This document shows positions 13,249 through 32,391 of a stretch of DNA of 64,000 nucleotides, piece by piece. The position numbers and the translations under genes were made by a program. A model generated the notes under the pieces. That model was given only the letters and a program-made list of their open reading frames with translations, did not search any database and was not told the origin of the DNA. Source of the stretch: Microbispora catharanthi (GTDB lineage: Bacteria; Actinomycetota; Actinomycetes; Streptosporangiales; Streptosporangiaceae); NCBI RefSeq assembly GCF_006334915.2, contig NZ_VDMA02000017.1:1-64000 (forward strand). Direction: 5' to 3'. Position 1 is the stretch's first letter, and every line of letters starts with the position of its first letter.

Positions 13249-14040
13249 TCAGCCGGTGACCGGGATGTTGGTCTTCACCGGCGTCGGAGTGGGCGCCGGC
13301 TTGGGCTTGCCCTGCGTCGGCGTGACGTCCTCGTCCCACTCGATCCACACGTCGATCGGCGGGCTGCCCGGCGTCGGCGTCGAGGTGGGTGTCCGCGAGG
13401 GAGTGGGCGTCCGGGTGGGGGTGGGCGTCCGCGAGGGGGTGGGCGACGCGGTGGGGGTCGGCGTCGGAGTCGGGCTGACCGTCGGCGTCTGGGACGTCGT
13501 GGGCGTCCGGGAGGGTGTAGGCGTCTGCGAGGGCGTCACCGTCGGCGTAGGCGTCTGCGAGGGCGTCGCCGTCGGGGTGGGCGTGGGGCTGGGCGTGGAC
13601 TCGCACTCGACCCAGAACACCTTCTGCTTGGGCGCGCCCTTCTTCCCGGCGAAGGTCCAGAACAGCTTGTAGTGCCCGCTCGGCAGGGTCATGTCGACGG
13701 TGCGGCCGTGCCCGCTGTGGTCGAGCACGAGGGTCCCGCTCTTCACCGTGGTCTTGTCGCCGGTGGGGGGCCAGGACTTGATCTCCCAGCTCACCTGCTC
13801 GGCCGCGTCGAAGTTGAACCCGACCAGGTAGAACACGCACACGTGCGGCTCGTCGCGCTGGTCGTCCTCCGGCGTCGTCCACTTGTGGATCTTGACGTCG
13901 CCGTTGTCGCCGGGCGCCGTCCTCTGGACCGCTCCCGCCGAGGCGGTGGTGGAGATGGCGAGCGCCCCGAGCGCCGCCACCGCGAGCATGAGCGCCGCTG
14001 TGAGCCAGCGACGGGCTGAAGAGAGTCTGGGGGCTGTCAC
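13249..14040 (-). CDS. secreted protein with long Ser/Thr/Pro tail
   Basis: About 263 residues. The N-terminus is a signal peptide (basic start, then WLTAALMLAVAALGALA, cleavage near TASAG). Residues about 33-130 form a small compact domain with cysteines (HVCVFYLVGFNFDAAEQVSW and FWVECES), probably an immunoglobulin-like fold. A tail of roughly 80 residues follows, made of TPTPS/SPTPT/SRTPT repeats, then an acidic patch (DVWIEWDEDV). The protein stops exactly after IPVTG. That resembles a sortase motif, but no membrane anchor follows. The GTG at 14040 has GAGG at good distance. Function unknown, probably at the cell surface or in the wall. Confidence 0.8.
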   Translation of the reverse strand: MTAPRLSSARRWLTAALMLAVAALGALAISTTASAGAVQRTAPGDNGDVKIHKWTTPEDDQRDEPHVCVFYLVGFNFDAAEQVSWEIKSWPPTGDKTTVKSGTLVLDHSGHGRTVDMTLPSGHYKLFWTFAGKKGAPKQKVFWVECESTPSPTPTPTATPSQTPTPTVTPSQTPTPSRTPTTSQTPTVSPTPTPTPTASPTPSRTPTPTRTPTPSRTPTSTPTPGSPPIDVWIEWDEDVTPTQGKPKPAPTPTPVKTNIPVTG

Positions 14041-16419: not shown

Positions 16420-17106
16420 TCACTGGGCCGCCTCCCTGAGCACGAATCCCACTCCGCGTACGGTGTGCACGATGCGCGGCTCGCCCCCTGCCTCGAGCTT
16501 GCGCCTGAGGTAGCCGACGAACGTGTCCACGGCGTTGCCGGTCACCGCGAAGTCGTATCCCCAGACCCGTTCGAGCAGCGTGTCGCGGGACAGCACGATC
16601 CCGGCGTTGTGGGCGAGCACCTCCAGCAGGTCGAACTCCCGCCGGCTCAGCTCGACCGGCCGGCCGTCGATCACGACCCGCCGCCCGGCCGGGTCCACGG
16701 TCAGGCGGCCCACCCGCACGACGGCGCCCGGAGGACGGCCCGCCCGGCGCAGCAGGGCGCGCAACCGCAGGACCACCTCCCGCAGTTCGAACGGCTTCAC
16801 CACGTAGTCGTCCGCCCCGGCGGCGAGGCCGGCGACCCGGTCGGTCACCTCGTCCATGGCCGACAGCATCAGCACCGGAACCTCCGACCGGCCCGACCGC
16901 AGGCGCTCGCACACCTCGATCCCCGACACGCCGGGCATCGACACGTCGAGGACGACCGCATCCGGTGCCGCGCGGTGGACGAGTTCCAGCGCCTCGCGTC
17001 CCGAGGTGGTCACGTCCACGTCGAATCCCTCCACGCGCAGACCACGTCGTAACGCGCGCAGGATGGCCGGATCGTCGTCGACGACGAGAACCCGGTATCT
17101 CGTCAT
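16420..17106 (-). CDS. response regulator, OmpR/PhoB family
   Basis: 228 residues. The receiver domain has acidic residues DDD at 10-12, the phosphorylation site Asp54 (VVLDVSMPG) and the Lys of YVVKPF near 104. The C-terminal winged helix carries RREFDLLEVLAHNAG and VDTFVGYLRRKLE, typical of OmpR/PhoB. It is the first gene of an operon with the kinase downstream. AGGAG precedes the ATG. The proximity of an L,D-transpeptidase hints at cell-wall stress control; that link is inference. Confidence 0.93.
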   Translation of the reverse strand: MTRYRVLVVDDDPAILRALRRGLRVEGFDVDVTTSGREALELVHRAAPDAVVLDVSMPGVSGIEVCERLRSGRSEVPVLMLSAMDEVTDRVAGLAAGADDYVVKPFELREVVLRLRALLRRAGRPPGAVVRVGRLTVDPAGRRVVIDGRPVELSRREFDLLEVLAHNAGIVLSRDTLLERVWGYDFAVTGNAVDTFVGYLRRKLEAGGEPRIVHTVRGVGFVLREAAQ

Positions 17107-17529
17107 GGCAGGGCTCCTGCTGCTTCGGGAGCGACCGGCGGGAGGATGACCGGCCGCCCTCGTGATCTCTTCCGAGGTCGGGAGTGGGCGGGGGCGTCGG
17201 CGTACGGCCGGGGGGTGGACCAGGAGCGGGAACCTACCAGGCGCCGACGGCGGAAGTCGATCTCCAATCTACGGCACCGCTCGCGGGCCGGGACGTCGCG
17301 CGTCAGGGACCGTCCGCCGGGGCGCGGCGATCCTCGAAGGGCCGCACGGCCTTCGCACGGCCTTCGCACGGCCTTCGCACGGCCTTCGCAAGGAGCCCGG
17401 CGGCGGGAGTCATCCACGAAGAGCCGCGACGGCTTGCCAGAGATATGCCAGAAACGTTCGCCATCATCCCTGCCGAGCGGCTCACGCGGCCGTTCCCCCG
17501 GCACCCCCGAGATCAGTGCGGAGCATTCG
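17107..17529. other. divergent intergenic region of 423 nt
   Basis: It separates the response regulator from the serine hydrolase and should contain both promoters. Its only distinctive content is the 11-bp tandem repeat at 17345-17388. Open frames reading through the region have no protein character. Confidence 0.6.
17345..17388. repeat. four tandem 11-bp repeats
   Basis: The unit CACGGCCTTCG is repeated four times without change at 17345, 17356, 17367 and 17378. The period of 11 bp is about one DNA turn, which would place binding sites on one face of the helix. It could be a regulator binding array or only slippage. Confidence 0.85.
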
Positions 17530-18672
17530 ATGCGATCACGATTCCTCCCGGTCGCCGCGGCGACGGCCGCGGCGGCTCTGGCGGCGGGCACGACCCCCGC
17601 CCAGGCCACAGCCCGGACCGGGGGGCCGCCCGCCGGCTCTGCGGCCGTGGCGGCCTTCCTTCCCTCCACGTCGTCGCCGCTCGATCCGATGGCGTTCGCC
17701 GTGCTGCGCCCGTCCGCCCACCCCGTCGAACTGCGGAGTGCCCCGCGCTCCCTGTCGGTGACGTACACGTTCCAGGGCAGGAAGTACACGCTCGACGACT
17801 ACCTCGCCAGGTCGAAGGCGAACGGCTTCGTCGTCCTCGACGGACAGAAGGTCGTGTACGAGCGCTACCGCGCCGCCGGGCCGAACACCCGGTTCCAGTC
17901 CTGGTCCATGGCGAAGTCCTTCACCTCGGCGGCGGTCGGCATCGCCCTGTACGAACGCCGCATCCACTCCATCGACGACCCGGTGACGCGGTACCTGCCC
18001 GAACTGCGCGCCTCCGGCTACGACGGCGTCTCCATCCGGAACCTGCTGCGGATGTCGTCCGGGATCGACTGGAACGAGCGGGCCGACGTGCCGAAGACGC
18101 AACTGGCCGCGCATCGCGGTTTCCCGGTCAAGCGGCTCGCGCAGCGGCAGGTACGCGGCTGGGAGCCGGGCAGCAGATTCGAGTACACCAGCATGAACAC
18201 GTTCGTCCTCGCCCGGCTGGTGAGCGAGGTGACGGGCATGCCCTACCACCGCTACGTCGAGGAGAAGATCTGGAAGCCGGCCGGTATGGCCTCCACGGCC
18301 CGCATCGGCGGCGACTCCCATGACGACCTGGGATATTGCTGCTACTACGCGACTGACCGCGACTTCGCCCGGTTCGGCCTGCTGTACCTCGGCAAGGGCC
18401 GCGCCGGTGGACGCCAGGTGGTGCCGCGGGCGTGGGTGGAGGAGTCGACCCGGCCTTCCGCCTCCTTCAATCCGGATTACGGCCTGCACTGGTGGCTGGG
18501 TGGCGGGGGCCAGGACGACTTCATGGCCGCGGGATTCGGCGGCCAGTACATCTACGTCTCGCCCGAACACCAGGTCGTGATCGTCAAGTCGGCCCTTTCC
18601 GCCTCGCAGGACCAGGGAGAGGCGCTGTCCGCCTTCCGCGCGGTGGCGGCCGAGGTGGCGAGAACACGCTGA
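17530..18672 (+). CDS. secreted serine hydrolase, beta-lactamase/NylB fold
   Basis: 380 residues from the ATG at 17530, which has GGAG upstream. A signal peptide (RSRFLPVAAATAAAALAAGT) is followed by a class C beta-lactamase-type domain. The catalytic S-x-x-K is SMAK in SWSMAKSFTSAAVG. The tyrosine motif appears as EYTSMNT, and the third element as AGFGGQYIYVSPEHQVVIV. Relatives include 6-aminohexanoate-dimer hydrolase, esterases and D,D-peptidases. It probably cleaves an ester or amide outside the cell. The exact substrate is not predictable. Confidence 0.9.
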   Translation: MRSRFLPVAAATAAAALAAGTTPAQATARTGGPPAGSAAVAAFLPSTSSPLDPMAFAVLRPSAHPVELRSAPRSLSVTYTFQGRKYTLDDYLARSKANGFVVLDGQKVVYERYRAAGPNTRFQSWSMAKSFTSAAVGIALYERRIHSIDDPVTRYLPELRASGYDGVSIRNLLRMSSGIDWNERADVPKTQLAAHRGFPVKRLAQRQVRGWEPGSRFEYTSMNTFVLARLVSEVTGMPYHRYVEEKIWKPAGMASTARIGGDSHDDLGYCCYYATDRDFARFGLLYLGKGRAGGRQVVPRAWVEESTRPSASFNPDYGLHWWLGGGGQDDFMAAGFGGQYIYVSPEHQVVIVKSALSASQDQGEALSAFRAVAAEVARTR

Positions 18673-23292: not shown

Positions 23293-23493
23293 AGCCAGAA
23301 TTATGTTCCACGTAGGCGCGTGCTCGGGCCGGGGTGAAACCGGTTGCGATTAGTGTGGACGCCAAACTATTGACGGCGCTTCCGCCGGTGTGTGAATCTT
23401 CCCTTCAGATTTCCATGCACGTGGGAGAAGGACGGTCAGGGTCCCCGCCTGGTCGTGCATGGCCGGTTGTCCGTGCTCGGAGGGAAACCGTCC

Positions 23494-26250
23494 ATGCGAA
23501 GATTCGCAACCCTGCTCGTGGTCGCCGCCGTGGCGCTGGTCACGGCCGTGATCAGAATGTCCCCGGTGTCGGCCGTCGCCGCCGACTCGTACACGTTCAA
23601 GAACGTGCAGATCCTCGGCGGCGGCTTCGTCCCCGGGATCGTCTTCAGCCCCGCTCAGAAGGACCTGATCTACGCGCGCACCGACATCGGCGGCGCGTAC
23701 CGCTGGAACCAGTCGTCCCAGACCTGGGCGCCGCTGCTCGACTGGGTCGGGCAGTCCAACTGGGGCTACAACGGCGTGGTCAGCATCGCCCCCGACCCCG
23801 CGGACGCCAACAAGGTGTACGCCGCCGTCGGCATGTACACCAACAGCTGGGACCCCAACAACGGCGCGATCCTGCGCTCGTCGAACAAGGGCGACACCTG
23901 GCAGGTGAGCCCCCTGCCGTTCAAGCTGGGCGGCAACATGCCCGGCCGCGGCATGGGCGAGCGCCTCGCGGTGGACCCGAACAAGAACAGCATCCTCTAC
24001 TTCGGCGCGCCCAGCGGCAACGGCCTGTGGCGGAGCACCGACTCCGGCGCCACCTGGTCCAAGGTGACCAACTTCCCGAACGTCGGCAACTACGTCGCCA
24101 GCCCCGGAGACGCCTACAACGGTGACAACCAGGGCGTCGTCTGGGTGACCTTCGACAAGCGGACCGGCACCTCGGGCAACGCCACCCAGACCGTCTATGT
24201 GGGCGTGGCCGACAAGGACAACACCGTCTACCGGACCACCAACGGCGGCACCTCCTGGGAGCGGGTCGCGGGTCAGCCCACCGGCTACATCGCCCACAAG
24301 GGCGTGCTCGACACGGCCAACGGCTACCTCTACATCGCCACCAGCGACACGGGCGGCCCGTACGACGGCGCCAAGGGCGACGTGTGGCGCTACGCCACCG
24401 CCACCGGCACCTGGACCCAGATCAGCCCGATTCCGTCCAGCAGCTCCGACGACTACTTCGGCTACAGCGGCCTGACCATCGACCGCCAGCACCCCGGCAC
24501 GATCATGGTCGCCACCCAGGTCTCCTGGTGGCCCGACGCGATCTTCTTCAGGAGCACCGACAGCGGCGCGACCTGGACCCGCGTCTGGGACTGGACGTCC
24601 TACCCGAACCGTAGCTTCCGCTACAAGATGGACATCTCCGCCGCTCCGTGGCTGACCTTCGGCACGAACCCCCAGCCGCCCGAGGTCACGCCCAAGCTCG
24701 GCTGGATGAACGAGTCGGTGGAGATCGACCCGTTCAACTCCGACCGGATGATGTACGGCACCGGCGCGACGATCTACGGCACCACCGACCTCACGAAGTG
24801 GGACTCCGGCGGCCAGTTCACGATCACGCCGATGGTGAAGGGCCTGGAGGAGACCGCCGTCCTCGACCTGATCAGCCCGCCGAGCGGCGCACCGCTGGTC
24901 AGCGCGCTGGGCGACATCGGCGGCTTCCGGCACACCAACCTCGACGCCGTGCCGTCCATGATGTTCACCCAGCCCGTCTTCACCTCCACGACCTCGCTCG
25001 ACTACGCCGAGACCAACCCGAGCGTGATGGTGCGGGCCGGCAACTTCACCGACTCCGACCGCCCGAACGACAGCCACGTGGCCTTCTCCACCGACGGCGG
25101 GGCCAACTGGTTCCAGGGCACAGAGCCGGGCGGGATCAACAGCGGCGGCACCGTCGCGGCGGCGGCCGACGGCAGCCGCTTCGTCTGGGCGCCGGCCGAC
25201 GCCGGCCAGCAGGTCGTCTACTCCGTCGGCTACGGCAACAGCTGGACCGCCTCCAGCGGCGTCCCGGCCAACGCGATCGTCGAGTCCGACCGCGTGAACG
25301 CGCAGAAGTTCTATGCCTTCTCCGGCGGCAAGTTCTACGTGAGCACCAACGGCGGCGCGAGCTTCAGCGCCACCGCGGCGACCGGGCTGCCCACGACCGG
25401 CGTGCACTTCAAGGCGCTGCCGGGCAAGGAGGGCGACGTCTGGCTGGCAGGCGAGGGCGGCCTGTGGCACTCCACCGACTCGGGCGCCTCGTTCACCAAG
25501 CTGTCGAACGTCAGCAGCTCGATCAACATCGGCTTCGGCAAGGCGGCGCCCGGCAAGACGTACCAGGCCCTCTACCTCGCCGGCACCGTCGACGGCGTGC
25601 AGGGCCTGTTCCGGTCCGACGACACCGGCGCGAGCTGGGTGCGCATCAACGACGACCAGCACCAGTACGGCAACATGGGCGAGGCCCTGACCGGCGACCC
25701 GCGGATCTACGGCCGGGTCTACCTCGGCACCAACGGCCGGGGCATCATCTACGGCGACCGCAACGGCGGGTCCTCCCCGTCGCCGTCGCCGTCCGCTTCA
25801 CCGTCGGCGTCCCCGTCGCCGTCCCCGTCCGCGTCGCCCTCGGCCTCTCCGTCGAAGTCGCCGTCCCCGAGCCCGTCGGCCAGCCCGTCGCCCTCGCCCA
25901 GCCCCTCCCCGAGCCCGTCGCCCTCGGCGAGCCCGTCGGGCGGCAAGGGGTGCTCGGCGACGTACAAGGTGGTCAACCAGTGGCCCGGCGGCTTCCAGGG
26001 CGAGGTCACGGTGAAGAACACCGGCAGCGCCTCGATCAGCGGCTGGAGCGTCAAGTGGGCCTTCGCGAACGGCCAGACGATCAGCCAGCTCTGGAACGGC
26101 ACGGTGAGCCAGTCCGGGGCGAACGTCACGGTCACCAACGTGAGCTACAACGGCTCGGTCGGCTCCGGGGCGTCCACCACGTTCGGGTTTCAGGCGAGCT
26201 GGAACGGCACCAACGCCGTCCCGTCGCCGGTGACCTGCACCGCCTCGTGA
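23494..26250 (+). CDS. xyloglucanase, GH74 with C-terminal CBM2
   Basis: About 918 residues from the ATG at 23494 (GGAGG upstream). A signal peptide spans roughly 1-30. The GH74 domain is made of BNR-like beta-propeller repeats (RSTDSGATW, RTTNGGTSW, HSTDSGASF). Both catalytic Asp motifs are visible: YARTDIGGAYRW (Asp64) and ALGDIGGFRH (Asp474). A Ser-Pro linker of about 60 residues follows (759-818). The CBM2 (820-918) begins and ends with cysteines (CSATYKVVNQWPGGF to VTCTAS) and has conserved tryptophans for cellulose binding. The secreted enzyme should cut xyloglucan in plant cell walls. A strong terminator follows. Confidence 0.94.
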   Translation: MRRFATLLVVAAVALVTAVIRMSPVSAVAADSYTFKNVQILGGGFVPGIVFSPAQKDLIYARTDIGGAYRWNQSSQTWAPLLDWVGQSNWGYNGVVSIAPDPADANKVYAAVGMYTNSWDPNNGAILRSSNKGDTWQVSPLPFKLGGNMPGRGMGERLAVDPNKNSILYFGAPSGNGLWRSTDSGATWSKVTNFPNVGNYVASPGDAYNGDNQGVVWVTFDKRTGTSGNATQTVYVGVADKDNTVYRTTNGGTSWERVAGQPTGYIAHKGVLDTANGYLYIATSDTGGPYDGAKGDVWRYATATGTWTQISPIPSSSSDDYFGYSGLTIDRQHPGTIMVATQVSWWPDAIFFRSTDSGATWTRVWDWTSYPNRSFRYKMDISAAPWLTFGTNPQPPEVTPKLGWMNESVEIDPFNSDRMMYGTGATIYGTTDLTKWDSGGQFTITPMVKGLEETAVLDLISPPSGAPLVSALGDIGGFRHTNLDAVPSMMFTQPVFTSTTSLDYAETNPSVMVRAGNFTDSDRPNDSHVAFSTDGGANWFQGTEPGGINSGGTVAAAADGSRFVWAPADAGQQVVYSVGYGNSWTASSGVPANAIVESDRVNAQKFYAFSGGKFYVSTNGGASFSATAATGLPTTGVHFKALPGKEGDVWLAGEGGLWHSTDSGASFTKLSNVSSSINIGFGKAAPGKTYQALYLAGTVDGVQGLFRSDDTGASWVRINDDQHQYGNMGEALTGDPRIYGRVYLGTNGRGIIYGDRNGGSSPSPSPSASPSASPSPSPSASPSASPSKSPSPSPSASPSPSPSPSPSPSPSASPSGGKGCSATYKVVNQWPGGFQGEVTVKNTGSASISGWSVKWAFANGQTISQLWNGTVSQSGANVTVTNVSYNGSVGSGASTTFGFQASWNGTNAVPSPVTCTAS

Positions 26251-26264
26251 GATAGCACGACAAC

Positions 26265-26306
26265 GGCCGTACGGATGGGCCGCCGAGGCGGCACATCCGT
26301 ACGGCC
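26265..26306 (+). terminator. terminator of the xyloglucanase gene
   Basis: GGCCGTACGGATG (26265-26277) pairs perfectly with CATCCGTACGGCC (26294-26306), and the interior GCCGCC/GGCGGC pairs as well. It starts 15 bp after the stop codon. There is no T-tract. Confidence 0.8.
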
Positions 26307-26372
26307 CGTCCGTCAGCGACCCGGCCCTACTCGGGGAAATTCGCGTGCGCCCCGAGGGCGGCCGGGTGTTGC

Positions 26373-27038
26373 ATGAATCCGATGATCGACGAACCGCTGG
26401 AACGACTGCGCGCCGCCGCCCGGCGCACGCGTGAACTCGCCCTCAAGCGGGCGGGCACCGGCCTGGGCCACGAGGACGCCGACGACGACGTCGGCACGAT
26501 CGGCACGGACGGCGCCCTCGGATTCGACCCGTTTCCCCTGCTCGAAGCCCTCCACCGCCATGGCGTACGAGCCGCGGTGATCGGGCAGGTCGCCGGCATC
26601 ATGCACGGATCCACCGAACTGACCGGCGATCTGGATCTGCTCTGGGACGGCGAACCGGTCCACGCCCCGGCCCTGGCGGCCGCCTTCATGTCCGTCGACG
26701 CCCGGCTCTCCGACGAAACGGGCGCCCCCATGGCGACTCATCCGGACGCTCTGCTCCGCCCCAAAGTGCAGTTCACCGCGCCCGGAGCGAGCGGCGACTG
26801 CTGCACCCCCGCGCTCCCCTGGGGCAACCTGCGAGTCCGGGAGATCCTCGACAGGGCGGTCACGGCATACGGCCCGGGCGCCCTGGAAGTTCACTACGTG
26901 TCCCGGGAGGACCTCATCCGGATGCGGCGGGCCATAGGCCGCCCCAAGGACCTCCGGCGAGCAGCCGAGCTCGACAGTCTCGCGCCGGACCTGCGAATGA
27001 TCCGGAGAACGCCGGATTCCCGTCAATTCCGGCGGTAA
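26373..27038 (+). CDS. nucleotidyltransferase-fold protein
   Basis: 221 residues. The segment VRAAVIGQVAGIMHGS followed by ELTGDLDLLWDGE has the G-x-x-A-x-x-x-H-G-S and D-x-D pattern of minimal nucleotidyltransferases (AbiEii/DUF6036-like). The C-terminus carries SREDLIRMRRAIGRPKDLRR, which often follows in this group. It should transfer a nucleotide to a protein or small molecule, but the partner is unknown. A fragment of a phosphotransferase follows 28 bp downstream. Confidence 0.75.
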   Translation: MNPMIDEPLERLRAAARRTRELALKRAGTGLGHEDADDDVGTIGTDGALGFDPFPLLEALHRHGVRAAVIGQVAGIMHGSTELTGDLDLLWDGEPVHAPALAAAFMSVDARLSDETGAPMATHPDALLRPKVQFTAPGASGDCCTPALPWGNLRVREILDRAVTAYGPGALEVHYVSREDLIRMRRAIGRPKDLRRAAELDSLAPDLRMIRRTPDSRQFRR

Positions 27039-27065
27039 GCCCGGGCTCACTTCCTCTCCCCCTCT

Positions 27066-27236
27066 CAGGGGGCGCGGCCGGAGGTGGCCGCGCGGCTGCT
27101 CATGGAGACCCGCCTGATGCCGTGGCCCGCGCAGCGGCTGCCGTTGCCCGTCCCGATCCCTCACGTCCTGCGGCAGGAGCCGTTGGTCGTACGGCACGAG
27201 ATGGTCGCCGGTGAGCCGCTCAAGACCTTCGAAGCC
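27066..27236 (+). pseudogene. fragment of an aminoglycoside/choline-type phosphotransferase
   Basis: About 57 codons read ARPEVAARLLMETRLMPWPA, then QRLPLPVPIPHVLRQEPL and RHEMVAGEPL. This matches the part of APH-type kinases around the early P-L-P-V-P-x-P segment and the following strand with its P/A-G-E turn. Neither the ATP-binding front nor the catalytic H-x-D-x-x-x-x-N part is present. It is therefore a remnant. The similarity is short, so confidence is moderate. Confidence 0.45.
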
Positions 27237-27409
27237 GCGGGACGTTGGTTGTCACTGCGGACCGCGGGCACTTCCGCGCCTGTGAGACGGAGCGACTGGT
27301 GAGGAAAGACCCTACGGATGTGACCTTCGACTGGTATCTCCGCAGGGCCCTTCGCATAGCCTTGCCTGGGCGGGCCGTCGGGCCGCGCCGGGACAGGGGT
27401 GACTGCGCG

Positions 27410-29467
27410 ATGGCGATCGGAGTTTACGTCGCGGCCGGCGACGCGAGGAGCAACAAGGGCACGATCGCCCTCGGCATGATCGAACTGCTGACCCGCCAGG
27501 TGGGCACGGTCGGCGTGTTCCGGCCGGTCGTCCGGTCAGGCCGCCAGGACAGCCTGGTCAACACCGCGCGCAGCCGCTTCGGGATCGGCCTGCCCTACGC
27601 CATGTGCACGGGCGTCACCTACGAGGAGGTGCACGCCGACGAGGAGCGCGCGGCCGGGGAGATCCTGGCCCGCTACCGGGCGCTCGCCGGGCGGTGCGAC
27701 GCGGTCGTGGTGATCGGCACCGACTACACCGACGTGGGCGCGCCCACCGAGTTCGTGTTCAACGCCGAACTCGCCGCAAACCTGGGCACACCGGTGATGA
27801 ACGTGGTGACCGGGCTCGACCGCACCCCCGACGAGATCGCCGCGGCGGTCGAGATGTCGCGCAAGGAACTGGCCGAGCGGCACGCCACCGAGCTGGCCAC
27901 GGTCGTCACGCGGGTCGCCCCCGGCCTGGTGGACGAGGTCGCCGCCCGCGTCCCCGCGTACGTCCTGCCGGAGGTGCGGCGGCTGTCCGCGCCGACGGTC
28001 AGCGACCTGATGGCCGCCTGCGACGGCGACCTGTTCATGGGCGACGCCGACCAGCTCGGCCGGGAGACGGGCGGGCTGATGATCGGCGCGATGTCGCTGC
28101 CGAACATCCTGGAGCGCCTCACCGAGGGACTGGCGGTCGTCGTCCCCGCCGACCGGGCCGCCGCGCTGGTGCCGGGGCTGCTGGCCGCGCACAAGGCCCC
28201 CACGTTCCCCGCCCTGTCCGCGATCATCCTCAACGGCGGGCTCGAGTTGCCCGACGCGGTCGTCCGCCTGCTGAAGGGCATGGACATCCGGCTGCCGATC
28301 ATCACGACCGGCGGCGGCACGTTCGAGACCGCGACCAGGCTGTCGAAGGCCGAGGGCCGGTTCAGCCCGGACGCCAAGGGCAAGATCGACACGGCGCTCG
28401 GGGTCTTCGCCGAGCACGTCGACGCCGGGGCGCTGCTGCGCAACCTGCAGGTCACCAAGGCCGCGGCGATCACCCCGCTCATGTTCGAGTACAACCTGCT
28501 GGACCGCGCCCGTGCCGACCGCAAGCACATCGTGCTGCCGGAGGGCGCCGAGCCGCGGATCCTGCGCGCCGCCGACAGCCTGCTGCGCCGGGGCGTGGCC
28601 GAGCTGACCCTGCTGGGCGACGAGCGGGAGATCCGGCTGGCGGCGGCCACGATGGGCCTGGCCGTCGACGGCGCCCGCGTGGTCAGCCCGTTCGACCCGG
28701 AGCTGCGCGAGCTGTTCGCCGAGGAGTACGCCCGGCTGCGCGCGCACAAGGGCGCGACGGTCGGGCAGGCCCGCGACATCGTCACCGACGTCTCCTATTT
28801 CGGCACGATGATGGTCCACCTCGGGCTGGCCGACGGCATGGTCTCCGGCGCCGCCCACACCACCGCCCACACGATCAGGCCCTCGTTCGAGATCATCAAG
28901 ACCTCGCCGGGCGTCGGCGTCGTGTCCAGCGTCTTCTTCATGTGCCTGGCCGACCGTGTCCTCGTGTACGGCGACTGCGCCGTCGTCCCCGACCCCACGG
29001 CCGTCCAGCTCGCCGACATCGCGATCTCGTCGGCCGCCACGGCCGCCAGGTTCGGGGTCGAGCCGCGCGTGGCCATGCTGTCGTACTCGACCGGCGAGTC
29101 CGGCGCGGGGCCCGAGGTGGACAAGGTGCGCGAGGCCACCGCGCGGGTCCGCGAGCTGCGGCCGGATCTGCCCGTCGAGGGCCCGATCCAGTACGACGCC
29201 GCGGCCGAGCCGAGCGTGGCGCGCACCAAGATGCCCGGCAGCCCGGTCGCCGGGCGGGCGACGGTGTTCGTGGTGCCCGACCTCAACACGGGCAACAACC
29301 TCTACAAGGCCGTGCAGCGCAGCGCCGGCGCGGTCGCGATCGGGCCGGTCCTGCAGGGCCTGCGCAAGCCGGTCAACGACCTGTCCCGCGGCGCGACCGT
29401 GGGCGACATCGTCAACACCGTCGCGATCACGGCCATCCAGGCGCAGGCGCACGGGGAGGCACAGTGA
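27410..29467 (+). CDS. pta: phosphate acetyltransferase, long form
   Basis: 685 residues. The C-terminal catalytic domain (about 365-680) has the family features ADGMVSGAAHTTAHTIRPSF, YSTGESGAGPEVDKV and NTGNNLYKAVQRSAGAVAIG. The N-terminal half carries a P-loop-like regulatory domain (VYVAAGDARSNKGTIALG) and a DRTGG-type domain, as in enterobacterial-style Pta. It converts acetyl-CoA and phosphate to acetyl phosphate and CoA. It is followed by ackA, so together they make acetate and ATP or activate acetate. The start is the ATG at 27410; its ribosome site is weak. The stop overlaps the first repeat of the array at 29464. Confidence 0.95.
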   Translation: MAIGVYVAAGDARSNKGTIALGMIELLTRQVGTVGVFRPVVRSGRQDSLVNTARSRFGIGLPYAMCTGVTYEEVHADEERAAGEILARYRALAGRCDAVVVIGTDYTDVGAPTEFVFNAELAANLGTPVMNVVTGLDRTPDEIAAAVEMSRKELAERHATELATVVTRVAPGLVDEVAARVPAYVLPEVRRLSAPTVSDLMAACDGDLFMGDADQLGRETGGLMIGAMSLPNILERLTEGLAVVVPADRAAALVPGLLAAHKAPTFPALSAIILNGGLELPDAVVRLLKGMDIRLPIITTGGGTFETATRLSKAEGRFSPDAKGKIDTALGVFAEHVDAGALLRNLQVTKAAAITPLMFEYNLLDRARADRKHIVLPEGAEPRILRAADSLLRRGVAELTLLGDEREIRLAAATMGLAVDGARVVSPFDPELRELFAEEYARLRAHKGATVGQARDIVTDVSYFGTMMVHLGLADGMVSGAAHTTAHTIRPSFEIIKTSPGVGVVSSVFFMCLADRVLVYGDCAVVPDPTAVQLADIAISSAATAARFGVEPRVAMLSYSTGESGAGPEVDKVREATARVRELRPDLPVEGPIQYDAAAEPSVARTKMPGSPVAGRATVFVVPDLNTGNNLYKAVQRSAGAVAIGPVLQGLRKPVNDLSRGATVGDIVNTVAITAIQAQAHGEAQ

Positions 29468-29550
29468 GCGCGCGGGCGCGATGGGAGACACAGTGAGCGC
29501 GCAGGCGCGGCAGGGCACACAGTGAGCGCGCGGGCGCGGGAGGAGACACA

Positions 29551-29554
<4 letters not shown>
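29464..29554 (+). repeat. three tandem 29-nt units forming coupled micro-ORFs between pta and ackA
   Basis: GTG codons lie at 29464, 29493, 29522 and 29551, exactly 29 nt apart. Each unit opens GTGAGCGCGC and ends in a purine-rich ribosome site followed by ACACA. Because 29 is not a multiple of 3, each unit reads as 10 codons and a TGA that overlaps the next GTG as GTGA. The predicted peptides are VSARARWETQ, VSAQARQGTQ and VSARAREETQ. The pta TGA overlaps the first GTG, and the fourth GTG is the ackA start. The units differ at only a few positions, so they arose by tandem duplication of the original stop/start overlap. Confidence 0.9.
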
Positions 29555-30729
<1,175 letters not shown>

Positions 30730-30777
30730 ACCGGCCGATCGCCGCCGCGGTCGTCCGCTGGCTATCGTGGGCAGCGA

Positions 30778-31215
30778 ATGGGGGTGAGCCGTGTGGCGAC
30801 GGCTGAGGACAGTCGTACGGGTGGGAAAGAGGGCACTGCCGATTCGCCGGGCTGGCTCGACCGGGTCCGGGCGACTCCGGCGGGCCGGTTGACGCTGCGG
30901 ATCGTCATCGGGGTGATCGGCACCGCGCTCGTGGTCACCGGCCTGATCATGGTGCCCTTTCCGGGCCCGGGCTGGCTGGTGGTCTTCGCCGGGCTCGCCG
31001 TCCTGGCCACGGAGTTCGCCTGGGCGTCCCGGCTGCTGCAGTTCGCCAAGGAGAGGGTCAGGGCGGCGACCGACTGGCTGAAGCGGCAGAACTGGTTCGT
31101 CCGCATCGTCGCGGGCGCGCTCACCCTGCTCTGCGCCGGGGCCATCGTCTGGGTGTCGGTCCGGCTGACCCTCGGCATCGACCTGATCCAGAAGGCCCGC
31201 GAGCTTCTGAGCTGA
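30778..31215 (+). CDS. TIGR02611 family (PGPGW) membrane protein
   Basis: 145 residues. The motif MVPFPGPGWLVVFAGLAVLATEFAWA is the hallmark of this family; two hydrophobic hairpin helices surround it (about 40-62 and 64-82). A third hydrophobic segment lies near 107-127. The function is unknown. Several starts (ATG 30778, GTG 30784, GTG 30793) are possible within the first codons. Confidence 0.85.
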   Translation: MGVSRVATAEDSRTGGKEGTADSPGWLDRVRATPAGRLTLRIVIGVIGTALVVTGLIMVPFPGPGWLVVFAGLAVLATEFAWASRLLQFAKERVRAATDWLKRQNWFVRIVAGALTLLCAGAIVWVSVRLTLGIDLIQKARELLS

Positions 31216-31218
31216 CCG

Positions 31219-32391
31219 TCAGGCGCGGGCCAGCCTGCGGACCGCCAGTTCGCCGAGCAGCGTCGCGCCGTCGGACAGGATGGCGTCGTCGAACTCCGCC
31301 TCCGCCGAGTGGTTGGACGGGGCCGTGGCGAGATCCCGGCCGGGCGGGCAGGCGCCGACCACGAGGAACGCCCCCGGCACCTGCTCCAGCACGTACGAGA
31401 AGTCCTCCGAGCCGGTCGCCGGGGTGGGCAGCGGGAAGTAGCGGTCCTCGCCGAGGGCCTCCCGCACCGTCCGGGCGGCGAACTCCGCCTCGGCGTCGTC
31501 GTTCACCGTCACGGGATAGCCGAGGCCGAACGCGCAGTCGACGGTGAGGCCGTGCGCCTCCCCGATTCCGCGGGCGAGCCGGACCAGGCCCTCCCTGACG
31601 CGGTCGCGCGAGCCGGCCGAGAACGTGCGCACGGTGGTCTCGAAGACGGCCTCGTCCGGGATCACGTTGTCGGTGGTGCCGGCGTGGAAGCTGCCGACGG
31701 TCACCACGACCGGGTCGAACACATCGTAGCCGCGAGTGACGTGGGTCTGCAGCGCCGTCACGATCTCGCAGGCCGCGGGGATCGGGTCGAGGGCGCGGTG
31801 CGGGGAGGAGCCGTGGCCGCCCCTGCCGCGCACGGTCACGGTCAGCGTGTCGGCCGCGGCCAGCACGGGTCCGCCCTTGGTCAGGAACAGCCCGCGCGGG
31901 ATCGTCGTGGAGAAGACGTGCACGCCGTACGCCGCGACGGGCCTCGCCCCGGCCGCGTCGAGCACGCCCTCCTCGATCATCAGCCGGGCGCCCTCCTGGC
32001 CCTCCTCGCCGGGCTGGAACATCAGCACCACGTCACCGGCGAGGTCGGCGCGGCGCTCGCTGAGCAGGCGGGCGGCTCCCACCAGCATGGCCGTGTGCAG
32101 GTCGTGGCCGCAGGCGTGCATGCGGCCGTCGAAACGCGACCGGTAGGGCACGTCGGTCTTCTCGTGCACCGGCAGCGCGTCCATGTCGGCGCGCAGCAGC
32201 ACGGCGGGGCCCGGGCGGCCGCCGCGCAGAACGGCGGTCACCGACGACAGGCGCTCGCCCGTGGTGATCTCCAGGGGCAGGCCGTCGAGCGCCGCGAGCA
32301 CCTTCTCCTGCGTGCGGGGCAGGTCGAGGCCGATCTCCGGCTCCCGGTGCAGCGCGCGGCGGAGCTCGACGAGATCATCCTGGAGGGTCAT
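31219..32391 (-). CDS. M20 family amidohydrolase
   Basis: 390 residues of the N-acyl amino acid/hippurate hydrolase type. Metal-binding motifs are visible: MHACGHDLHTAM (about 91-102), FQPGEEGQEGARLMIEEG, GVHVFSTTIPRG and a C-terminal TGSEDFSYVLEQVPGAF. It should remove an acyl group from an N-acyl amino acid or peptide in the cytosol. AGGTGG lies upstream of the ATG. It is transcribed with the Cpn10-like gene upstream, with a 27-nt gap. Confidence 0.92.
   Translation of the reverse strand: MTLQDDLVELRRALHREPEIGLDLPRTQEKVLAALDGLPLEITTGERLSSVTAVLRGGRPGPAVLLRADMDALPVHEKTDVPYRSRFDGRMHACGHDLHTAMLVGAARLLSERRADLAGDVVLMFQPGEEGQEGARLMIEEGVLDAAGARPVAAYGVHVFSTTIPRGLFLTKGGPVLAAADTLTVTVRGRGGHGSSPHRALDPIPAACEIVTALQTHVTRGYDVFDPVVVTVGSFHAGTTDNVIPDEAVFETTVRTFSAGSRDRVREGLVRLARGIGEAHGLTVDCAFGLGYPVTVNDDAEAEFAARTVREALGEDRYFPLPTPATGSEDFSYVLEQVPGAFLVVGACPPGRDLATAPSNHSAEAEFDDAILSDGATLLGELAVRRLARA

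Follow-up and report, generated by a model that had tools for sequence, protein, structure and literature searches.

Mycobacterial interspersed repetitive units (MIRUs) were reportedly first described, by Supply et al. in 1997, in a mycobacterial two-component operon. That operon is senX3-regX3, and the target site of the units goes by the name DTGA. MIRUs are described as variable-number minisatellites whose internal open reading frame (ORF) is coupled to the next gene at −4 nt, as an NTGA overlap, and this coupling is thought to permit insertion with minimal effect on expression (PMC12548453, PMC3914561); they measure 46–101 bp and occupy 41 loci scattered in one genome (PMC3914561), and they appear to be mobile (PMC12548453). 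Studies covered by one review place the greatest coupling efficiency at spacings between −4 and +3 nt and invoke scanning by 30S or 70S particles as the mechanism in their models (PMC12548453), and leader genes, as presented by Korolev et al. 2016 (PMC4833913), are short ORFs without a stable product that have been proposed to hand ribosomes onward, raising translation of the next gene by reinitiation. Here, we describe an array of 29-nt tandem repeats between pta and ackA of Microbispora catharanthi, located within positions 1 to 64,000 of contig NZ_VDMA02000017.1 (this 64,000-nt stretch of the forward strand is referred to as the window), in which each repeat is a ten-codon micro-ORF that starts on the stop codon before it. 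We consider it probable that the array is an intercistronic minisatellite whose repeating unit is the translational-coupling module itself.

The junction contains four successive GTGA start/stop overlaps between pta and ackA. GTG codons at 29464, 29493, 29522, and 29551 are spaced by exactly 29, 29, and 29 nt; pta ends in CAG TGA, its stop overlapping the first GTG, the TGA of each unit overlaps the GTG that follows, and the last GTG opens ackA. Re-reading the sequence bore out these coordinates and overlaps, which had been given in a preliminary description of the locus, together with its three decapeptides and its claim that a purine-rich stretch precedes the next GTG in every unit. The features, including the Shine-Dalgarno (SD)-like stretches with their predicted anti-SD pairing energies, are as follows:

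27410..29467, + strand: pta (phosphate acetyltransferase) of 685 codons, terminated by TGA at 29465-29467 (ORF, Pfam, and NCBIfam)
29441..29463, + strand: 3′ tail of pta, the since-diverged copy from which the repeat unit derives, minus its GTGAGC part
29453-29459, + strand: purine run GGGGAGG inside the pta 3′ tail
29464..29496, + strand: micro-ORF 1, VSARARWETQ (repeat unit 29464-29492), its GTG overlapping the stop of pta
29481..29488, + strand: SD-like purine-rich stretch of unit 1, ahead of GTG 29493 (−9.5 kcal/mol predicted)
29493..29525, + strand: micro-ORF 2, VSAQARQGTQ (repeat unit 29493-29521)
29510..29517, + strand: SD-like purine-rich stretch of unit 2, ahead of GTG 29522 (−6.2 kcal/mol predicted)
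29522..29554, + strand: micro-ORF 3, VSARAREETQ (repeat unit 29522-29550)
29539..29546, + strand: SD-like purine run GGAGGAGA of unit 3, ahead of the ackA GTG (−12.0 kcal/mol predicted)
29551..30729, + strand: ackA, acetate kinase, 392 codons, its GTG overlapping the stop of micro-ORF 3 (ORF, Pfam, and NCBIfam)

Pairing energies were calculated with a presumed 13-nt anti-SD tail. Both flanking genes match the NCBIfam pta and ackA models, and Pfam places AAA_26, DRTGG, and PTA_PTB in pta and Acetate_kinase in ackA. Tandem Repeats Finder delimits the array at 29455-29557 (period 29, 3.6 copies, 85% matches, score 150); neighboring units are 79% and 86% identical, and the 29 nt of pta ahead of the first GTG are 66% identical to unit 1. 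The distinctive features of the locus are the repeat itself and its placement between two real genes.

We read the pta-ackA junction in the 9.25-Mb genome of the window (G000) and in 14 congeners, 15 species in all. At least one unit is present in 10 of the 15 (range 1–6, including a fused copy in G008), and because the repeat recurs in this way, we regard the array as more than chance. Separate units number six in G005, five in G009, four in G004 and G011, three in G000 and G007, two in G014, and one in G010; G002 carries one unit of 27 nt, and the single copy in G008 now forms part of a lengthened pta. The remaining five species (G001, G012, G013, G003, and G006) have zero units and a plain GTGA overlap instead, and in a tree of pta and ackA built without the array, G003 and G006 form the deepest pair of the genus. 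Even sister species differ in unit number (three in G000 versus one in G002, four in G011 versus six in G005, four in G004 versus five in G009). With head-to-tail units whose number varies between species, the array behaves as a variable-number tandem repeat, or minisatellite. Both the variable copy number among relatives (0–6 units) and the retention of a single ancestral GTGA overlap, which the preliminary description had proposed looking for, are therefore seen within the genus, and assembly error is ruled out by the presence of the array in independent genomes, including the five-unit array in the single-contig chromosome of G009. A second acetate-kinase-like match, 49% identical, was found in the genome of the window (G000:C68:46514-47443) and also in 12 of the 14 congeners.

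Of 29 pta-ackA units across these species, 23 are 29 nt long (3n−1), two are 27 nt, three are 30 nt, and one is 36 nt, and none has a length of 1 mod 3. The departures from 29 nt preserve the stop-start chain: the 30- and 36-nt units merge adjacent micro-ORFs, the 27-nt units read in frame into ackA, and the new internal stops in G007 and G005 each come with their own overlapping start. Boundary exceptions are a GTC in G008 and, where ackA begins in G014, a GTGG. The earlier idea that the array slips by whole repeats and leaves both proteins unchanged thus holds in part: units of 27, 30, and 36 nt exist, and the proteins are mostly untouched, except that the last step in G002 and G014 is in frame with ackA and would lengthen AckA, and that G008 has the lengthened pta.

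Outside the genus, an NTGA overlap in frame with ackA is present at 63 of 88 pta-ackA loci, a set that includes near-duplicates (L030 and L110 have the same junction; L001 was dropped as a duplicate of L002), and reading these 88 junctions by eye revealed no relay array, with the wide gaps of L097 and L109 only partly covered. The array therefore looks like an invention of this genus atop a widespread overlap. Its source can be read from species that have zero units. The unit is composed of the last 23 nt ahead of the overlap plus GTGAGC, and the consensus 29-nt unit, when rotated, matches the unduplicated G012 junction at 29 of 29 positions, indicating in-place tandem duplication as the origin of the array; matches to the other zero-unit junctions are 28/29 in G003, 26/29 in G001, 25/29 in G006, and 22/29 in G013. 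In other words, the junction (the pta tail with its SD-like run, the GTGA, and the first bases of ackA) has been duplicated head to tail within one genus. A dispersed element was ruled out, as the exact 17-nt core of the unit has three matches in the G000 genome, all at the pta-ackA junction; with up to two mismatches the core has 60 matches, against 43 for a reversed control pattern. Slippage seeded by a direct repeat 29 nt apart, between the QAQ codons of pta and the GQ codons of ackA, is unproven: of the five species with zero units, G006 alone has the 29-nt offset in first place (9/12), G013 has it tied (8/12), and in G001, G012, and G003 it falls outside the four best offsets listed.

We followed the chain from the pta stop by stepping only via starts that overlap a stop. 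It reaches ackA in 15 of 15 species, directly in six, by an in-frame step in G002, and via separate micro-ORFs in eight, and it is intact although six of the 29 units deviate from 29 nt (27, 27, 30, 30, 30, and 36). Indels of 1–2 nt break the chain in 10%–71% of trials, and under unconstrained drift to the observed divergence each of nine pta arrays would stay intact with a probability of 0.31–0.88. Units were delimited at RTGAGCG, so the fixity of that motif within units is by construction; there is also no double-length unit in the nine arrays, and hence no internal RTGAGCG boundary has been lost. Unit positions 20–25 are purines in 118 of 120 letters (20 distinct 29-nt units), with exchanges between A and G, as expected for an SD kept by function, and predicted anti-SD pairing reaches −5 kcal/mol or lower in 23 of 26 distinct units, versus 38% of 1,500 random 16-mers from the window.

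Start and stop boundaries stay in place across the nine arrays, and the peptides between them drift. The possibility that the repeated peptides are functional in themselves draws on the near-identity of the decapeptides within G000; we reject it as barely conceivable, given that no conservation is seen across the 15 species, where the peptides vary greatly both from one species to another and with the frame (VSARARWETQ, MSARARRRCRVSAQARRRCRVSAQAREETR, MRSRVSAQAR), that 7 of the 15 have no separate micro-ORF, and that relays at other junctions encode unrelated peptides. An RNA or DNA element, such as hairpins or protein sites, with an incidental reading frame would fit the near-invariance of unit positions 8–17 and the appearance of GCGCGCRGGCGCG, which looks locally self-complementary by eye. 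This conserved core copies the pta tail, however, and the pta-ackA junction is the one place in the genome with exact copies of GTGAGCGCGCRGGCGCG. The array RNA also folds worse than shuffled sequences (z = +2.02; 197 of 200 shuffles at least as stable), and there is no Rfam match at the gathering threshold within 26000-32000, so we rejected an RNA-structure reading and consider an element of either kind very unlikely. Nor does the array resemble an attenuator leader: it lies between two genes, its RNA is no more structured than shuffles, and Rfam gives no match.

In the explanation we favor, the minisatellite of the coupling module, a ribosome finishing pta would re-initiate at the overlapping GTG, make a ten-codon peptide with no function of its own, stop at the next GTGA, and repeat this until it reaches ackA, which at this junction would amount to four re-initiations. 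Fresh ribosome entry might also occur at the SD of any unit. Every added unit would come with an SD, a stop, and an overlapping start of its own, so that the array could expand or shrink without uncoupling the genes, and such changes would do little harm to AckA synthesis. The array may then be tolerated, with its chain kept continuous by mild purifying selection, and would persist since each unit carries its own coupling, without any need for a set number of links. On this view the peptides are by-products, and a change in copy number may incidentally alter AckA output. A separate ackA promoter would, according to the preliminary description, speak against the relay; no sigma-70-like promoter was found at 28900-29900, which is a weak test in an actinobacterium. 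A terminator-like site at 28916-28933 on the + strand lies inside pta and is taken as chance.

A search of the 15 genus genomes for three RTGA motifs at 29-nt spacing yielded pta-ackA, scattered single matches, and one further array, whose flanking genes encode an ABC-transporter ATPase and a penicillin acylase (both by Pfam):

G000:C67:42641-42702 (L180): relay array between the ABC ATPase and penicillin acylase genes
G011:C12:277782-277872: relay array between the same pair of genes

This junction encodes two decapeptides in G000, three in G011, and one each in G002, G007, and G008, as well as one eight-codon micro-ORF (23 nt) in G005; G004, G009, G010, G013, and G014 have no micro-ORF. We read 11 loci (the G001 locus lies outside the excised region, G006 gives a weak 33% match, and G003 and G012 give none), and the chain is intact in all 11, six of which have micro-ORFs with 29- or 23-nt units. 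The unit sequence and peptides are unrelated to those of pta-ackA. The downstream acylase has one in-frame TGA in G005 (G005:C1:510938-513136), and its match in G007 (G007:C30:7791-7907), where the micro-ORF is still present, covers just 39 codons, so the acylase in these two species may be decaying while the micro-ORF persists.

We also surveyed 2.09 Mb, mostly from G009 (1.59 Mb) and G013 (0.4 Mb), with a codon-usage gene finder. Among 844 close co-directional junctions, 181 have a −4 overlap and 12 a duplicated gene end, and four of these 12 are relays: that of the window, the G011 acylase junction, and two of G009. Relays of longer units in G009 are located as follows:

C1 4,190,617, + strand: micro-ORF relay with units of 80 and 71 nt
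C1 4,243,816, − strand: micro-ORF relay with a unit of 110 nt
C1 147,074, − strand: relay with one 68-nt micro-ORF

Across 200 genomes of the family, arrays of four RTGA motifs occur at a spacing of 29 nt in 16 genomes, 28 nt in 32, 30 nt in 114, 31 nt in nine, and 32 nt in 31. We therefore rejected a global enrichment of 29-nt arrays, as spacings of 28, 30, and 32 nt occur in more genomes and only 31 nt in fewer. The 30-nt arrays include a number of exact 15-nt repeats among the matches listed. Loci read in context numbered 34 at 29 nt, 42 at 28 nt, 30 at 30 nt (of 114 genomes), 30 at 32 nt (of 31 genomes), and nine at 31 nt. Arrays of 2 mod 3 period bridge nine distinct gene pairs stop to start, two in the genus and seven in five other genera; the latter were found via RTGA at fixed spacing, so their intact chain is partly built in:

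L310: HisKA_3 kinase and LuxR-type response regulator
L312: two ABC permeases
L317: protein with HTH and pyridoxamine-oxidase domains and a zinc dehydrogenase
L407: upstream gene (gene call only) and KDPG aldolase
L405 (G078:C3): methionyl-tRNA synthetase and TatD, with five 14-nt units (VSAES, VSAES, VSTES, VSTEL, VSGGS)
L433 (G081): Oxidored_q2 protein and Proton_antipo_M protein
L436 (G201:C53): FTCD-type cyclodeaminase and FolD

Genes around the arrays are codon-usage calls confirmed in part by Pfam, with the upstream gene of L407 and the three G009 relay junctions defined by calls alone. At L405, the C-terminus of the methionyl-tRNA synthetase is itself VSAES. Units at the other gene pairs are unrelated in sequence and peptide to the pta-ackA unit, and judged from their families, some of the bridged pairs look like functional partners.

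If relays were selected for phase, bridging should favor periods of 2 mod 3. Counting pta-ackA once, bridging arrays number 9 of 69 at 2 mod 3, 1 of 37 at 1 mod 3, and 1 of 19 at 0 mod 3; this test dropped 13 of 131 arrays with autocorrelation below 0.55 and the 31-nt L441, and some arrays were counted on both strands. L332 bridges by a looser rule only and fails the rule used here. An initial count of 11/71 versus 0/28 gave P = 0.031, or 0.056 once three pta-ackA genomes were counted as one, and this value rose to the 0.16 given below because 31-nt arrays were added and L445 bridges two genes. The pooled comparison (9/69 versus 2/56) gives P = 0.11, and 29 nt alone against true 28 nt (6/25 versus 0/19 bridging) gives P = 0.029. 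L385, of period 15 (0 mod 3), is an exception that bridges two genes. The phase counts thus lean toward, and fit, selection for relay phase without proving it.

Several observations weigh against the coupling-module explanation. The direct comparison of 2 mod 3 with 1 mod 3 periods gives P = 0.16, and L445 (G197:C113), a 31-nt array at the end of its upstream gene, bridges two genes in violation of strict 2 mod 3 phase; its chain is unbroken, running through a 21-codon ORF across two units and then reaching a start that shares the frame of the next gene, though with weak coding support (0.16), later ones being likelier. In GC-rich DNA such as this, chance alone often produces repeat-free start-stop chains: a 0.93-Mb sample contains 221 that link long open frames in one to three hops (sub-chains counted). 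Single substitutions break the pta-ackA chain in 2%–11% of trials, so the chain is robust by composition and its unbroken state is not overwhelmingly remarkable; the product of the nine drift probabilities, 0.0023 if the arrays are independent, exaggerates the evidence since they share ancestry. Across the 20 distinct 29-nt units, positions 8–17 show roughly the same degree of conservation as the start/stop, and RTGA conservation alone therefore does not single out translation. SDs are weak in 3 of the 26 distinct units (G011 unit 1, G005 units 1–3), and SD strength clearly beats a neutral null only if transitions are not favored (P = 0.003, 0.06, and 0.24 at transition fractions of 0.5, 0.67, and 0.8).

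The rarity of chain-breaking substitutions and the abundance of chance chains also favor an alternative, a plain neutral minisatellite in which slippage copies the junction, the micro-ORFs are untranslated or irrelevant, and the chain follows from composition and recent copying. That fixed-period RTGA tandem arrays are common in the family and not special to 29 nt, that 12 of the 131 arrays of 28–32 nt read in context bridge two genes, and that G007 retains its micro-ORF ahead of so short an acylase match are all in its favor. Set against it are the unbroken chains in 15/15 and 11/11 junctions, the absence of any 1 mod 3 length among the 29 pta-ackA units, and the nearly purine-only drift at the SD positions. 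Selection tests on the array are suggestive, not decisive, and we hold a purely neutral minisatellite to be possible but unlikely.

A stronger form of the coupling-module explanation holds that unit number determines the Pta:AckA ratio, as the preliminary description had suggested it could, and that selection has acted on this number as a rheostat. Copy number does differ between sister species, and a synthetic study reports that one short upstream ORF can raise target output up to 20-fold, depending on how it is designed (PMC13255528); yet unit number ranges from 0 to 6 across a single genus with no discernible pattern, and five species have none, which makes a selected tuner improbable in our estimation. 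A tuning role is nonetheless a possible companion of the coupling-module explanation, with which it overlaps. More broadly, relays may be a recurrent device in this family, in which start/stop overlaps between co-translated genes are time and again copied into micro-ORF chains, with chain continuity selected and a rapidly changing link number adjusting how many ribosomes reach the second protein, a proposal that we regard as doubtful. If true, slippage would drive the evolution of a translational rheostat and would leave both proteins mostly unaltered. The natural series of 0, 1, 2, 3, 4, 5, and 6 units at one junction in close relatives, with the same design at other gene pairs, makes termination-reinitiation, per-step efficiency, and tuning directly testable. 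The array also shows a route for minisatellites to live inside operons and offers annotators a caution that such spacers may be translated.

Other repeats in the window include a perfect 11-nt tandem repeat, CGCACGGCCTT, of 4.4 copies at 17343-17390, between divergent predicted genes at 16420-17106 (− strand) and 17689-18672 (+ strand). Low-complexity repeats occur at 25772-25939, inside a predicted gene at 23473-26250 (+ strand), and at 13370-13598, inside one at 13249-13989 (− strand).

Compared with described systems, the start/stop overlap itself is identical to that of NTGA gene pairs coupled by termination-reinitiation (PMC12548453, PMC6728339), and at most relatives' loci (63/88) pta and ackA are such a pair; those pairs have one overlap, whereas here a chain of several parts the same two genes. 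Leader genes number at most one per gene, do not overlap it, and peak in frequency at a distance of 10–11 bp (PMC4833913); the present units, by contrast, are tandemly repeated within an operon and overlap from stop to start. The short upstream-ORF design shares a short ORF with an internal SD that delivers ribosomes to a target; it is synthetic and single, and the terms “tandem” and “two nfORF” are absent from its main text (PMC13255528). The nearest known system is the mycobacterial MIRU, and the array would work like one: its unit too holds an ORF with an NTGA overlap to its neighbor, a likeness of sequence, and its copy number is variable between species. It differs in that its 29-nt unit (with 27-, 30-, and 36-nt variants) is outside the 46–101 bp of MIRUs, in that its core is not dispersed, with exact copies at one junction and unrelated units at other junctions, and in that the unit is identical to the local unduplicated junction, pointing to local duplication. 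We do not class it as a MIRU, as its unit size and lack of dispersal do not match and mobility finds no support. Among the matches listed in the open-licence literature, we found no report of in-place tandem duplication of a start/stop overlap.

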